The notes beneath the pieces were generated by a model. That model saw nothing but the letters and a program-made list of their open reading frames with translations. It made no database searches and had not been told where the DNA came from. A stretch of DNA of 64,000 nt, from positions 186,001 through 250,000 of the forward strand of contig NZ_SCVC01000036.1 of NCBI RefSeq assembly GCF_004297405.1. Reading direction: 5' to 3'. The DNA comes from Reyranella sp. (GTDB lineage: Bacteria > Pseudomonadota > Alphaproteobacteria > Reyranellales > Reyranellaceae). Of the stretch, positions 3,143-41,756 are shown in pieces. The position numbers and the translations under genes were made by a program. The first letter of the stretch is position 1. Each line of letters begins with the position of its first letter.

Positions 3143-4144
3143 ATGAAACTGACCCGTCGCAATGTCCTGACTGCCTCCGCCGCCGCTCTGGGATCGTCAC
3201 TCGCCGCACCCGCCGTGAAGGCAAGTCCCGGCTGGCCGACCAAGGCCCCGATCAAGCTGATCGCGACCTTCCCGCCCGGCGGCACCGCCGACACGATTTC
3301 GCGCATCCTGGCGCCCAAGCTTTCGGCCGCGCTCGGCACCCAGGTCGTGGTCGAGAACAAGCCCGGCGCCGGTGGCACGATCGGCTCGGACCTCGCTGCA
3401 AAAGCCGCGCCCGATGGCTACACCTTGGTGATCTCGCATGCCTCGCCGCTCGGCATCGCGCCCGGCATCTATCCCAAGTTGCCCTACAATGTGTTGGCCG
3501 ACTTCACCCACGTCACCCTGATCGGTCACACACCGAACGTTCTGATCGTGCCGGCCGACGCACCCTTCAAGACACTTGCCGACTACATCGCCGCCGCCAA
3601 GGCAAAGCCCGACCAGATCGCCTTCGGCAGCTCGGGCATCGGCTCCAACACACACCTGATGGGCGAACTGCTGTCGAGCCTGGCGGGCATCAAGCTGAAG
3701 CATGTGCCCTATCGCGGCTCGGCGCCGTCGCTGCAGGACATGCTGGCTGGCGTCATTCCTTCGATGTTCGACCCGATCACGACCAACGTGCCGCATATCA
3801 ACTCCGGCAAGGTCCGCCTGCTGGCGGTGAGTTCGGAGAAGCGCCTCGACATGTATCCCGACGCACCGACCTTTGCCGAACAGGGCTTCCCCAAACTAAC
3901 GACGTCGACCTGGGTGGGCGTTTCCGGTCCCAAGGGCATGTCACCTGAGATCGTCGCGCGTCTCTATGACGAGTTGCAGAAGGCCTACAAGGCGCCGGAA
4001 GTCGTCGAGCGCTTCAAAGACGTCGTCCTGCTGCCCGGCGACAAACCGATGACCCCGCCCGAATACACCCAGTTCGTCGGCGACTTCTCCGTACTCTGGG
4101 CCGGCGTCAGCAAGTCGGCCGGCATCGAACTCGAACTGGGCTGA
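3143..4144 (+). CDS. Tripartite tricarboxylate transporter (Bug/TctC) family substrate-binding protein
   Basis: 333-residue periplasmic binding protein of the Bug/TctC family, which captures carboxylates or other small organic ligands. A twin-arginine-like or Sec signal (MKLTRRNVLTAS..., cleavage near residue 26) is followed by the Bug hallmarks KLIATFPPGGTADTISR, VVENKPGAGGTIGSDLAAK and the VPYRGSAPSLQDMLAG block. I chose ATG 3143 because a GGGAAAGGGAG site sits about 6 nt before it; an upstream in-frame start at 3008 would add 45 residues without signal-peptide character. No TctA or TctB membrane gene is adjacent, so this is an orphan receptor. The ligand is unknown. Confidence 0.9.
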   Translation: MKLTRRNVLTASAAALGSSLAAPAVKASPGWPTKAPIKLIATFPPGGTADTISRILAPKLSAALGTQVVVENKPGAGGTIGSDLAAKAAPDGYTLVISHASPLGIAPGIYPKLPYNVLADFTHVTLIGHTPNVLIVPADAPFKTLADYIAAAKAKPDQIAFGSSGIGSNTHLMGELLSSLAGIKLKHVPYRGSAPSLQDMLAGVIPSMFDPITTNVPHINSGKVRLLAVSSEKRLDMYPDAPTFAEQGFPKLTTSTWVGVSGPKGMSPEIVARLYDELQKAYKAPEVVERFKDVVLLPGDKPMTPPEYTQFVGDFSVLWAGVSKSAGIELELG

Positions 4145-38179: not shown

Positions 38180-39469
38180 CTAGTCGTCGATTGCGTCTTC
38201 GAGGGTACGCATGCCAGGACGCTTGGCAGAGACGAGCACCGCCATGTTTCCGGGCTTGTGCTGGTTCTTCCACATCTTGGTGTGAGCCTTGGGAATATCG
38301 GCCCAGTCGAAGACCTCGCTCATGCAGGGATCGATGCGGCGCTCGATCACGAGCTGGTTGGCCTGGCTGGCCTGCAGCAGGTTGGCGAAGTGGCTGCCCT
38401 GGATGCGCTTCTGGCGCATCCATACGAAGCGTGCGTCCATAGTGAGGTTGTAGCCGGTGGTGCCGGCGCAGAAGACCACCATGCCGCCGCGCTTCACGAT
38501 GAAGCACGAGACCGGGAAGGTCTGTTCGCCGGGATGCTCGAAGACAAAGTCGACATCGTTGCCCTTGCCGGTATGTTCCCAGATCGCCGCGCCGAACTTG
38601 CGGCACTTCTTCATGTACTCGGCATAGCCCGCCTGGTCGTCGACGTCGGGCAACTGGCCCCAGCAGTCGAAATCGTTGCGGTTGATGACGCCGCGCGCGC
38701 CGAGCGACATCACGAAGTCCTTCTTCGACGGATCGGAGATCACGCCGATGGCATTGGCGCCCGCGGTGGCGATGAGCTGCACGGCCATCGAGCCGATGCC
38801 GCCCGCCGCGCCCCACACCAGCACGTTGTGGCCGGGACGCAGGATGTGCGGACGATGGCCGAACAGCATGCGGTAGGCCGTGGCGAGCGTGAGCGTGTAG
38901 CAGGCGCTCTCTTCCCAGGTGAGATGCTGGGCGCGCTTCATGAGCTGGCGCGCCTGCACCTTGCAGAACTGCGCGAACGAACCGTCGGGCGTCTCGTAGC
39001 CCCAGATGCGCTGGCTGGTGGAGAACATCGGATCGCCGCCGTTGCACTCCTCGTCGTCGCCATCGTCCTGGTTACAATGGATGACGACCTCGTCACCGAC
39101 CTTCCAGCGCTTCACCTTGGCGCCGACCGCCCAGACGATGCCCGAGGCATCGGAGCCCGCGATGTGGAACGGCTGCTTGTGGACGTCGAACGGCGAGATC
39201 GGCAGGCCGAGACCCGCCCAGACGCCGTTGTAGTTCACGCCGGCGGCCATCACGAGAACCAGCACCTCGTCCTCGCCGATCGCGTGCGTCGGCACGACTT
39301 CGAGCTGCATGGACTGCTCGGGCGGACCGTGACGGTCGCGCCGGATAACCCAGGCATACATGTTCTTCGGCACGTGCCCCAGCGGCGGAATCTCACCGAC
39401 TTCGTAGAGATCCTTCTTCGGCTGGTTGGCCGTGGGATGCTGGCGAGCCGCAAAAGCGACGACGGTCAT
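38180..39469 (-). CDS. ccrA: Crotonyl-CoA carboxylase/reductase
   Basis: 429-residue NADPH-dependent reductive carboxylase making (2S)-ethylmalonyl-CoA from crotonyl-CoA and CO2, the key step of the ethylmalonyl-CoA pathway. It is a medium-chain dehydrogenase fold with the family blocks MAAGVNYNGVWAGLG, HIAGSDASGIVWAVG, TWEESACYTLTLATAYRMLFG (abridged), LVWGAAGGIGSMAVQL and the C-terminal HFANLLQASQANQ. AGGAGG lies just before ATG 39469. This supports C2 assimilation without isocitrate lyase, to be confirmed elsewhere in the genome. A palindrome in its upstream gap may control it. Confidence 0.95.
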   Translation of the reverse strand: MTVVAFAARQHPTANQPKKDLYEVGEIPPLGHVPKNMYAWVIRRDRHGPPEQSMQLEVVPTHAIGEDEVLVLVMAAGVNYNGVWAGLGLPISPFDVHKQPFHIAGSDASGIVWAVGAKVKRWKVGDEVVIHCNQDDGDDEECNGGDPMFSTSQRIWGYETPDGSFAQFCKVQARQLMKRAQHLTWEESACYTLTLATAYRMLFGHRPHILRPGHNVLVWGAAGGIGSMAVQLIATAGANAIGVISDPSKKDFVMSLGARGVINRNDFDCWGQLPDVDDQAGYAEYMKKCRKFGAAIWEHTGKGNDVDFVFEHPGEQTFPVSCFIVKRGGMVVFCAGTTGYNLTMDARFVWMRQKRIQGSHFANLLQASQANQLVIERRIDPCMSEVFDWADIPKAHTKMWKNQHKPGNMAVLVSAKRPGMRTLEDAIDD

Positions 39470-39635
39470 GGCTAAGCCTCCTGCAATGCGGCAAAGCTAT
39501 TGTTGCGCTCGCGAGATTGCAACGCACAAAATACTATTCCGAAAGAATGACGCAGGGGAAAAACAATAAAATTACGCCTGCCTTGCGGAAATCACAGATT
39601 GCGCAGCCCGTCGGAGTCGGGGCAGGCTCCCTCGT

Positions 39636-39655
39636 AGGTAAACGGTCGTTTACCT
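39636..39655. promoter_or_regulatory. 20-bp palindrome between ccrA and LLM gene (candidate TetR-type operator)
   Basis: AGGTAAACG-GT-CGTTTACCT is symmetrical over 20 bp with only the two central bases unpaired. It lies 29 nt before the LLM gene start and about 167 nt upstream of ccrA. TAAACG-N2-CGTTTA resembles operators of TetR-family repressors of acyl-CoA metabolism. No TetR gene is in the window. The same 215-nt gap is AT-rich close to ccrA and holds a weaker GTTGC...GCAAC inverted repeat (39502-39523). Confidence 0.6.
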
Positions 39656-39684
39656 CAAAGGCCTGAGTTTAGGGAGAAAGCACC

Positions 39685-40959
39685 ATGAAGCTCATGTGGT
39701 TCCACCTGATGCCGTACACGGAGCTTCCCGACGACTTCAATCAGAAGCACCCGAGCGTCTGGGTCGACATCCACTCTTCATTGTTCGACCCCAAGCGCGC
39801 GCACCACATGTACAACGACTTCATGGACGAGCTCGAATACGCCGCCGAGCTTGGCTACGACGCCGTCTGTGTGAATGAGCATCATTCAAACGGCTACGGT
39901 CTGATGCCCTCGCCCAACCTCATCGCCTCCTCGCTGGCCCGCCGCACGACCGACACCGCGCTCTGCGTCATGGGCAATTCGCTGGCCCTCTACAATCCGC
40001 CGACCCGCGTGGCCGAAGAGTTCGCGATGATCGACTGCATCTCGGGTGGCCGGCTGATCGCCGGCTTCCCGGTCGGCTCGCCGATGGACACCTGCTACGC
40101 CTATGGCCAGAACCCCAGCCTGCTGCGCGAGCGCTACTACGAAGCGCACGACCTGGTGAAGAAGGCGTGGACCGAGAAGGACACCTTCGCCTTCTCCGGC
40201 CGCTACAACCAGCAGCGCTACGTCAACATCTGGCCGCGGCCGATCCAGAACGACCCTCACCCGCCGATCTGGATTCCAGGCGGTGGATCGGTCGAGACGT
40301 GGCGGTGGTGCGCGGAGATGGATTACGTCTACTGCTACCTCTCCTACTACGGCTACAAGGCCGGCCTTACGACGATGCAGGGCTTCTGGAACGAGATGGA
40401 AAAGCTCGGTAAGGATCGGAACCCTTACCGCGCGGGCTTCCTGCAGTTCGTCGGTGTTGCCGAAAGCCGCCAGCAGGCTCTCGATCTCTACACCGAGCCT
40501 GCCGAGTATTTTTACGGCCGCTGCCTGCACGTCGACGCGCGCTTTGCGACTCCGCCCGGCTACACGACCGAGGCCACGCAGCGCGCCGGCATCGAGAGCA
40601 TGGTCGCCAAGGCCGCCAACACAGCGAGCTATTCGAGCAAGCTCAGCCTTAAGGCCACCAACATGAAGGACATCGTGGATGGTGGTTACGTCATCATCGG
40701 TTCGCCCGATGAAGTCGTCGAGCAGATCCGCCACGTCGCCAAGAGCCTCAACGTCGGCCATCTCATGCTGCTGCTGCAGTACGGCAACATGAGCAAGGAT
40801 ACGACCAAGTACAACACACGGCTGTTCGCGGAGAAGGTGATGCCGAAGGTCAAGGACCTGTTCGGCGAGTGGGAAGACAAATGGTGGCCGAAGCCCCTGG
40901 CCAAGGGCCAACGCGCCGCCGTTCCCGCCTTCCGTCCGCAAACCGTCGCCGCGGAGTAG
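39685..40959 (+). CDS. LLM-class flavin-dependent oxidoreductase
   Basis: 424-residue luciferase-like monooxygenase, requiring reduced FMN or F420 from a partner. MKLMWFHLMPYTELPDDF begins the TIM barrel, YDAVCVNEHHSNGYGLMPSPN and ALYNPPTRVAEEFAMIDCISGGRLIAGFPVG (abridged) are typical, and GSPDEVVEQI sits near the C-terminus. GGGAGAAAG precedes ATG 39685. The alpha/beta hydrolase gene starts 5 nt after the stop, making a two-gene operon. The substrate is unknown; monooxygenation then hydrolysis is a plausible pair. Whether it uses FMNH2 or F420 is undetermined. Confidence 0.9.
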   Translation: MKLMWFHLMPYTELPDDFNQKHPSVWVDIHSSLFDPKRAHHMYNDFMDELEYAAELGYDAVCVNEHHSNGYGLMPSPNLIASSLARRTTDTALCVMGNSLALYNPPTRVAEEFAMIDCISGGRLIAGFPVGSPMDTCYAYGQNPSLLRERYYEAHDLVKKAWTEKDTFAFSGRYNQQRYVNIWPRPIQNDPHPPIWIPGGGSVETWRWCAEMDYVYCYLSYYGYKAGLTTMQGFWNEMEKLGKDRNPYRAGFLQFVGVAESRQQALDLYTEPAEYFYGRCLHVDARFATPPGYTTEATQRAGIESMVAKAANTASYSSKLSLKATNMKDIVDGGYVIIGSPDEVVEQIRHVAKSLNVGHLMLLLQYGNMSKDTTKYNTRLFAEKVMPKVKDLFGEWEDKWWPKPLAKGQRAAVPAFRPQTVAAE

Positions 40960-40964
40960 TTCCA

Positions 40965-41756
40965 GTGTCCCAGCCTGTGACGACGACCGTCGAGGTCAAC
41001 GGTTTCCCCTGCCGTGTCTGGACGAAGGGCAAAGGCCCCAAGGTCGGCTTCCTGGCAGGCCTCGGCGGCCTGCCGCGGTGGCTGCCGTTCCTCGACAAGC
41101 TTGCCGAGACCCGTACGGTGATCGCGCCGTCGCTGCCGGGCTATCCGGGCGCGACCGGCCACACGGAACTCGACAGCCACCTCGACTGGGTGCTGGCGGT
41201 GCGCCAGTTGATCGACAAGGCGGGTCTCGCCGGGGCGGATCTGGTCGGCGCCTCGGTAGGTGGTGCCTTCGCGGCCGAAATGGCCGCGATCTTTCCGGAC
41301 CAAGTCGGCCGGCTGGTGCTGATCGCGCCCTTCGGCCTGTTCGACGACCAGGAACCGGCTGCCGACCCCTGGGCCCAGCGCCGGGACGTGTTGCCCGGCC
41401 TGATGTGCGCCGATGGCGACAAGTGGACCGCCCTTGTGACGCCCCCCGAGGGGGCTAATTCCGTCGAATGGCCGATCGAAATGAGCCGGGCGTCCGAAGC
41501 CGCCGCCCGCGCCTTCTGGCCACTCGGCAATACGCGGCTGGAAAAGCGTCTCGGCCTGATCGCGGCGCCCACCCTCGTTCTGTGGGGCGACCGGGATACC
41601 CTCCTGCCGCCGAGCTATGCACAGAAATTCGCGGCAGGGATCAACGGGGGAATTAACGGCGCGACACGGGCCGAAACCGTCCCCGAGGCCGGCCACCTCG
41701 CCTACCTCGATCAGCCCGACGCAGTCGCTCGGGCCGTCCTCGCCCATCTCGGTTGA
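40965..41756 (+). CDS. Alpha/beta hydrolase coupled to the LLM oxidoreductase
   Basis: 263-residue alpha/beta hydrolase with nucleophile Ser97 in GASVGGAFA, oxyanion region FLAGLGGLPRWLPFL, acid near LWGDRDTLLPP and His in PEAGHLAYLDQP. I chose GTG 40965, which sits just after the LLM stop codon and is served by CGGAG at the end of that gene; a start 32 codons upstream would run antisense-like through the LLM gene. Close spacing implies translational coupling. Likely substrates are esters or lactones made by the upstream monooxygenase (inference). Confidence 0.85.
   Translation: MSQPVTTTVEVNGFPCRVWTKGKGPKVGFLAGLGGLPRWLPFLDKLAETRTVIAPSLPGYPGATGHTELDSHLDWVLAVRQLIDKAGLAGADLVGASVGGAFAAEMAAIFPDQVGRLVLIAPFGLFDDQEPAADPWAQRRDVLPGLMCADGDKWTALVTPPEGANSVEWPIEMSRASEAAARAFWPLGNTRLEKRLGLIAAPTLVLWGDRDTLLPPSYAQKFAAGINGGINGATRAETVPEAGHLAYLDQPDAVARAVLAHLG

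Follow-up and report, generated by a model that had tools for sequence, protein, structure and literature searches.

Transcriptional regulators of the TetR family that control acyl-CoA regulons are already known as a class, and several described systems resemble the one reported here for Reyranella, a regulon with an unusual gene content. Nearest to the Reyranella TetR by sequence or by fold are regulators of the KstR2, PfmR, AibR and MbdR type. KstR2, AibR and MbdR belong to CoA-ester pathways, the structure entries of AibR naming isovaleryl-CoA; since identity to these proteins is only about 20-30% over the model, their ligands cannot be carried over. CcrR of Methylobacterium extorquens, reportedly a TetR activator for a gene of the ethylmalonyl-CoA pathway, is similar in being a TetR regulator named in connection with ccr, whereas the Reyranella site does not follow ccrA. 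In Betaproteobacteria, the TetR regulator FadP governs many unlinked operons for acyl-CoA breakdown and occurs in some lineages only (PMC5343134, PMC12543098). Compared by description only, FadP shares with the Reyranella regulator the many unlinked acyl-CoA operons and the confinement to a lineage, but it comes from another bacterial class, and the Reyranella regulon has ACAD11-type enzymes, phaR and luciferase-like monooxygenases at its centre. PaaR, the TetR of the phenylacetate pathway of Thermus thermophilus, is described with the operator CNAACGNNCGTTNG (PMC6651687). This system also combines a TetR with an acyl-CoA pathway and the palindrome core AACG-N2-CGTT; it differs in the phenylacetate pathway and in the outer C/G of its consensus, which are T/A in Reyranella (C against T two places outside AACG), and the PaaR operator does not match the Reyranella consensus, the core alone being common to both. 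Finally, a further report describes that ACAD10 and ACAD11 phosphorylate 4-hydroxyacyl-CoA on the way to 2-enoyl-CoA and that Pseudomonas putida uses a similar pathway for levulinate (PMC12440821). In the lva operon of P. putida and in the mammalian ACAD10/ACAD11 (PMC12440821), the kinase and the dehydrogenase come from the families that are also present in Reyranella, where in contrast the two genes are unlinked, share a common operator and have a predicted activity. Among the leading matches in the open-licence literature we found no study of a Reyranella regulator or of such a regulon.

The window, a stretch of 64,000 nucleotides from a Reyranella genome (6.46-Mb assembly, 50 contigs), carries the palindrome AGGTAAACGGTCGTTTACCT at positions 39636-39655 (no strand assigned), where two perfect 9-base arms flank a 2-base centre, AGGTAAACG-GT-CGTTTACCT, exactly as the earlier note had given it. 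It lies in the gap between ccrA and a gene for an LLM-class flavin oxidoreductase (39470-39684 in its entirety), with 29 nt from its end to the ATG of the LLM gene at 39685 and 166 nt from its start to the ATG of ccrA. The LLM gene (39685-40959, plus strand) encodes a distant luciferase-like protein (Bac_luciferase, PF00296, E 1e-32; best PDB match E 1.1e-13), for which no NCBIfam model scored above its cut-off. Directly behind it, a gene for an alpha/beta-hydrolase (40965-41756, plus strand; fold name read from the sequence, GTG start at 40965 chosen by comparison) probably forms one operon with the LLM gene. On the minus strand, ccrA (38180-39469) encodes a crotonyl-CoA carboxylase/reductase (TIGR01751, 611.7 bits against a cut-off of 378.55). 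The palindrome pattern at up to 3 mismatches matched once in the window and in none of 100 shuffles. Palindromes with 9-base arms and 0-4-base spacers as such are not rare there (the window has 8, while five mononucleotide shuffles gave 3-5), so that a mere palindrome proves little and the case rests on further copies and on conservation.

Matches to the LLM at E <= 1e-80 were obtained in 62 of 101 genomes (the own genome and 100 relatives), a count that includes paralogs of 50-55% identity. The predicted operator was present before the LLM gene in all 30 loci that were read, the best of those returned by the ortholog search, 29-44 nt upstream as measured from the 16-base core, and it departed from GTAAACGNNCGTTTAC by 0 mismatches in 24 loci and by 1, 2 and 3 mismatches in two loci each. 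In 21 aligned LLM loci the arms were constant, with the two centre bases and the flanks variable. This conservation before LLM orthologs lifts the palindrome above chance. LLM homologs from outside the genus (75, 55 and 53% identity) lacked the site. The own genome holds a paralog of 53% identity (C44:323382) that is also without the site, thus just one of these two LLM copies is in the regulon.

Across the genus, GTRAAYGNNCRTTYAC was found at 186 sites in 63 of 65 Reyranella genomes, compared with a single site for the reversed pattern. Exact sites of GTRAACGNNCGTTYAC occurred in 12 of 13 selected genus genomes, its reversed pattern in none. Among 289 genomes of the class, a stricter pattern was present in 3 genus members, in one genome from a different genus within the family and in 2 of the 285 others, the reversed pattern in 11 of 289. 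The site in the other genus sits between an enoyl-CoA-hydratase-like and a flavodoxin-like gene (names read from the sequence), while the two lone matches outside the family (G098, G168) look like chance against the background set by the reversed pattern. Looser matching was noisy, as the own genome at 2 mismatches held 26 sites versus 40 for the reversed control, that is, no more than the control, and mismatched sites were therefore used solely where position or orthologs back them. The earlier note had proposed a search of the full genome and had named the lack of other copies and of conservation as the case against its idea; copies turned up at unlinked genes, making a regulon of about eight sites, and conservation runs through the genus. 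Judged from these sequence comparisons, the palindrome most likely serves the LLM-hydrolase operon as its operator and belongs to the sites of a genus-wide Reyranella regulon.

The sites lie about 14-50 nt before, or over, the starts of recurring genes. Neighbours were assigned for 63 sites, 5 from the own genome and 58 from relatives, chosen among the pattern matches listed and with the LLM sites of the relatives deliberately excluded. They comprised phaR (17 sites; PhaR equivalog TIGR01848), a second LLM gene divergent from a lolA-like gene (13), an APH-type kinase gene divergent from that of a MaoC hydratase (13), an acyl-CoA dehydrogenase (9), a CaiB-type CoA-transferase, caiB (3), the LLM gene (1) and others (7), of which three precede an ACAD11-type dehydrogenase. 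In the own genome the sites are located at C49:225638 (the LLM of the window), C46:56592 (second LLM), C32:47988 (phaR), C7:134222 (acyl-CoA dehydrogenase, at a contig end), C25:31088 (kinase/maoC), C43:37206 (caiB) and C18:307203 (ACAD11-type dehydrogenase), with a degenerate site at about C20:188941 before a kinase-tetR operon. The distance to the gene start is nearly fixed for each target (phaR 28-32 nt, second LLM 27-40, acyl-CoA dehydrogenase 14-17, caiB 19), and the start codon of the APH-type kinase falls inside the site in all 13 sites read (own site at L010:3589-3604), which fits a repressor better than an activator. All 25 genomes searched have the site 49-70 nt upstream of the ACAD11-type dehydrogenase, 4 as an exact copy and 21 with a single mismatch, compared with none of 75 control windows at up to 2 mismatches. 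The site was absent before the dehydrogenase in G011, G102 and G016 and before phaR in G011. A loss profile was of no help in finding the regulator: G011 and G102, which have no strict site, were expected to have lost it, and as they retain degenerate sites at some targets the profile did not discriminate. Further candidate sites of the own genome lie before an indolepyruvate-oxidoreductase-like gene (C32:95162) and near an IclR-like gene (C48:50710), both names being read from the sequence; we do not count these two among the regulon. An exact site in G019 (L173:2530-2545) lies between two tandem genes that read as TRAP-type substrate-binding-like, and these genes possibly encode a transporter of the pathway.

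With regard to the regulator, a scan of 47 TetR loci of the own genome, reaching 1.4 kb or more to either side of the HTH, gave no site at up to 2 mismatches of GTAAACGNNCGTTTAC, and neither a strict PWM scan nor a promoter scan with a looser pattern of the own TetR loci gave anything convincing. The candidate escaped detection here, since about 1.1 kb separates it from its operon promoter, whose site is degenerate. With a joint query assembled from segments of 41 TetR proteins of the own genome, 30 TetR loci were retrieved from five relatives, and a site at up to 1 mismatch was present in only four of them, which are in-genus orthologs of one TetR. In these four the site is located about 1.1 kb upstream of tetR, before an ACAD11-like kinase gene that runs into tetR. 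Among the 30 best kinase loci of the genus, the site was present in all (1, 2 and 3 mismatches in 16, 10 and 4 loci), and so was tetR behind the kinase. In an overlapping set of 69 named kinase-tetR loci, 7 of which were not evaluable, the predicted operator stood before the operon at up to 2 mismatches in 50 of 62 loci (1 mismatch in 32, 2 in 18; 3 mismatches in 4, at least 4 in 8), compared with 0 of 179 control windows. The eight loci without the site are L350, from a group of 80% identity, and seven more distant relatives; G228, a family relative with a TetR ortholog, lacks it before the kinase like six other relatives from outside the genus. The distant relative L363, with a TetR of 51% identity, has the site. 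The kinase-tetR site overlaps CAGGAG/CAGGGG, which may be the ribosome-binding sequence of the kinase and might explain the usual mismatch at the last base. An ortholog of the kinase (at least 84% identity) was found in 59 of 65 genus genomes; in G007, G017, G036, G041, G043 and G051 only paralogs of 50-56% identity were seen. Four of these six genomes are less than 80% complete, G036 and G041 being 100% and 91% complete, and G036 still has exact sites.

The own TetR gene is located on C20 at about 190,007-190,708, and its product has a TetR_N domain (60.9 bits, cut-off 24) and a TetR_C_24 ligand domain (84.3 bits, cut-off 26.4). Its closest solved relatives by sequence are 3him, 2ibd, KstR2 and PfmR. 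The AlphaFold2 model (pLDDT 83.8) has a helical TetR fold over the whole protein and superimposes on 3him with Z 25.4 (rmsd 1.8 over 189 residues); PfmR (Z 21.9), AibR with isovaleryl-CoA (21.6) and KstR2 (20.9) are among the best structural matches. The sequences show where the sites lie, which genes they precede and how far they are conserved, as well as what the TetR is and where in the operon it is encoded; this unlinked TetR is likely the regulator of the site. The idea of the earlier note that an unlinked TetR-type protein may control the LLM operon gains support from the finding of such a gene, with the site at its operon promoter in relatives. Its suggestion that the TetR gene would carry the same site in its own promoter held in these relatives, but not in the own genome, where the site, like that of the closest relatives, has degenerated and now shows 3 mismatches.

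More distant relatives of the TetR (30-36% identity) were seen in 29 plasmid records, of which 10 were read. A match to the Reyranella pattern at up to 2 mismatches was present in 3 of 10 of these promoters versus 1 of 100 background windows, while the other seven, those of Methylobacterium included, gave no match at this threshold. A Georgenia TetR of 34% identity is divergent from genes for an acyl-CoA dehydrogenase and a phosphotransferase family protein, and its promoter holds two similar sites, ATGAACGTTTGTTTAC and GTCAACAAACGTTCAC. Two Methylobacterium copies are divergent from an isovaleryl-CoA dehydrogenase gene and carry AACGAACGTACGTTCGTT, one of them also the perfect palindrome ACGAACGGCCGTTCGT; the palindromes before isovaleryl-CoA dehydrogenase in these relatives have the form CGAACGNNCGTTCG. 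In L419 and L420 the TetR promoters of Methylobacterium, at about 3790-3850, hold palindromes of the form GAACG-N2-CGTTC, and this TetR is probably a leucine-pathway regulator of the same clade. The operators of the distant relatives are supportive of the TetR assignment, not proof of it.

Other explanations of the site have to be weighed against this one. The position of the palindrome within the upstream gap of ccrA, together with the naming of CcrR as a TetR activator of the ethylmalonyl-CoA pathway, would suit a site that belongs to ccrA and is read by a CcrR-like activator, and the earlier note had likewise allowed for control of ccrA and a tie to this pathway. We searched ccrA in 26 genomes, obtained 22 matches, aligned 20 promoters and read one more, that of L388 (L387 came without a gene start). 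The site was present at 0-1 mismatches in 12 of 12 ccrA promoters with the LLM gene as divergent neighbour and in 0 of 9 without it (best 4-5 mismatches), and hence it follows the LLM gene and is not conserved at ccr as a CcrR-type site. Moreover, LLM and site persist in G001, G028 and G036, in which no ccrA match was found, so that neither the proposed control of ccrA nor the tie to its pathway was borne out. A separate conserved block of the ccrA promoter, outside the palindrome at 39497-39534 (minus strand; approximately TTTGTGCRTTGCA...CTCGC...GCARCAATA), recurred in 18 of the 20 promoters aligned, irrespective of whether the LLM gene was the neighbour; ccrA is therefore probably under its own control, and the block is a candidate site of the true ccrA regulator. 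On present evidence ccrA does not appear to be a target, and we regard its ownership of the site as very improbable. Practically negligible is the reading as a chance palindrome or as a hairpin of a leader RNA, which could draw on the abundance of palindromes of this size in the window. Against it, the same particular sequence is met again at unlinked genes throughout the genus, the start codon of the APH-type kinase is spanned in every site read, and half-sites change without a change that would restore pairing, e.g., GTAAACG with CGTTCAC.

A weightier objection concerns the protein and not the site: the palindrome could be a real operator of another regulator, the TetR behind the kinase being a co-transcribed passenger. 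The TetR was found via an operon promoter rather than a private one, the copy before the own kinase-tetR operon is degenerate, and 6 of 65 genomes showed no kinase ortholog. Furthermore, co-transcription falls short of proof that the TetR is what binds, as an identical trace would be expected from whichever protein regulates the kinase. We nevertheless consider a passenger rather unlikely, as the same tetR follows the kinase in all 30 loci, its ligand domain is of an acyl-CoA type, and some distant relatives have N2-spaced palindromes of the same core before their own or divergent acyl-CoA genes. In addition, two other conserved TetR genes have different motifs at their own promoters, which led us to reject both: L049 (own C49:166535), beside an isovaleryl-CoA-dehydrogenase-like gene, has TACACA/TGTGTA, and L040 (own C30:117379) has TGTAAA/TTAACA. 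No conserved motif was seen at the promoter of the TetR L023. The phasin-linked TetR L060 was also rejected, having no site at up to 3 mismatches in its own 12-kb stretch; of three stretches from its relatives, two held one 3-mismatch match each and the third none. In 8 of 25 genomes, among them the own one, the gene of the TetR L031 (C18:304592) begins no more than 1.5 kb behind the ACAD11-type gene, but it was not seen there in the other 17, in which a flank of 1.5 kb was read; in the own genome a gene on the opposite strand lies in between, and G011 has no ortholog among the matches listed, yet keeps sites. That L031 is the regulator is thus hardly credible.

Our preferred reading, to which we assign a probability of roughly 0.78, is that the site is the operator of the LLM-hydrolase operon in a genus-wide regulon of the unlinked TetR, with an acyl-CoA, perhaps a hydroxyacyl-CoA, as the release signal. 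Binding and repression by this TetR, its ligand and the substrate of the pathway are what we infer from the sites and their genes. A TetR dimer bound to GTRAAYG-N2-CRTTYAC, near the gene start or across it, would block expression until an acyl-CoA, perhaps a hydroxyacyl-CoA of the pathway, releases it. The kinase before tetR matches the kinase domain of ACAD11 with E 2.7e-78 and the ACAD11-type dehydrogenase matches ACAD11 with E 9.8e-129 (ACAD11 structures 8v3v, 8v3u); for the APH-type kinase found at the maoC locus, the match to the ACAD11 kinase domain is weak (E 9.4e-8), and the other acyl-CoA dehydrogenase resembles caffeyl-CoA reductase and general acyl-CoA dehydrogenases more closely. 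The ACAD11-type kinase and dehydrogenase would turn 4-hydroxyacyl-CoA into 2-enoyl-CoA, and the regulon would join to them the second kinase with the MaoC-type hydratase, the CoA-transferase and the other acyl-CoA dehydrogenase, and would also take in phaR, a regulator of PHB, and the two luciferase-like monooxygenases, of which one is accompanied by a hydrolase. The presence of ACAD11-type enzymes along with MaoC hydratase, CoA-transferase and phaR suggests hydroxylated acids entering beta-oxidation and PHB metabolism. Apparently, this is a TetR acyl-CoA regulon built around the catabolism of 4-hydroxyacyl-CoA. The undefined oxidation that the earlier note had connected with the LLM-hydrolase operon thereby gains a context in 4-hydroxy-acid catabolism from its ACAD11-related partners, but not the link to the ethylmalonyl-CoA pathway. 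As a guess, LLM and hydrolase might convert ketones to hydroxy acids via esters or lactones. Going further, the TetR might be a dedicated regulator of the ACAD10/11-type hydroxy-acid route that senses hydroxyacyl-CoA or phospho-acyl-CoA and links the LLM enzymes and the hydrolase to the kinase-dehydrogenase route and, via phaR, to PHB; we hold this only tentatively and rather doubt it.

An isolated palindrome has become a testable regulon with a candidate regulator, and two uncharacterised luciferase-like oxidoreductases gain a metabolic context. If the effector is a hydroxyacyl-CoA, the TetR would provide the kinase-dehydrogenase route for 4-hydroxy acids (levulinate-type substrates, PHA monomers) with a regulator and perhaps with a biosensor. 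If the dedicated regulator exists, the similar operators in the actinobacterium Georgenia, together with its TetR, would make this regulatory logic older than the Reyranella lineage.
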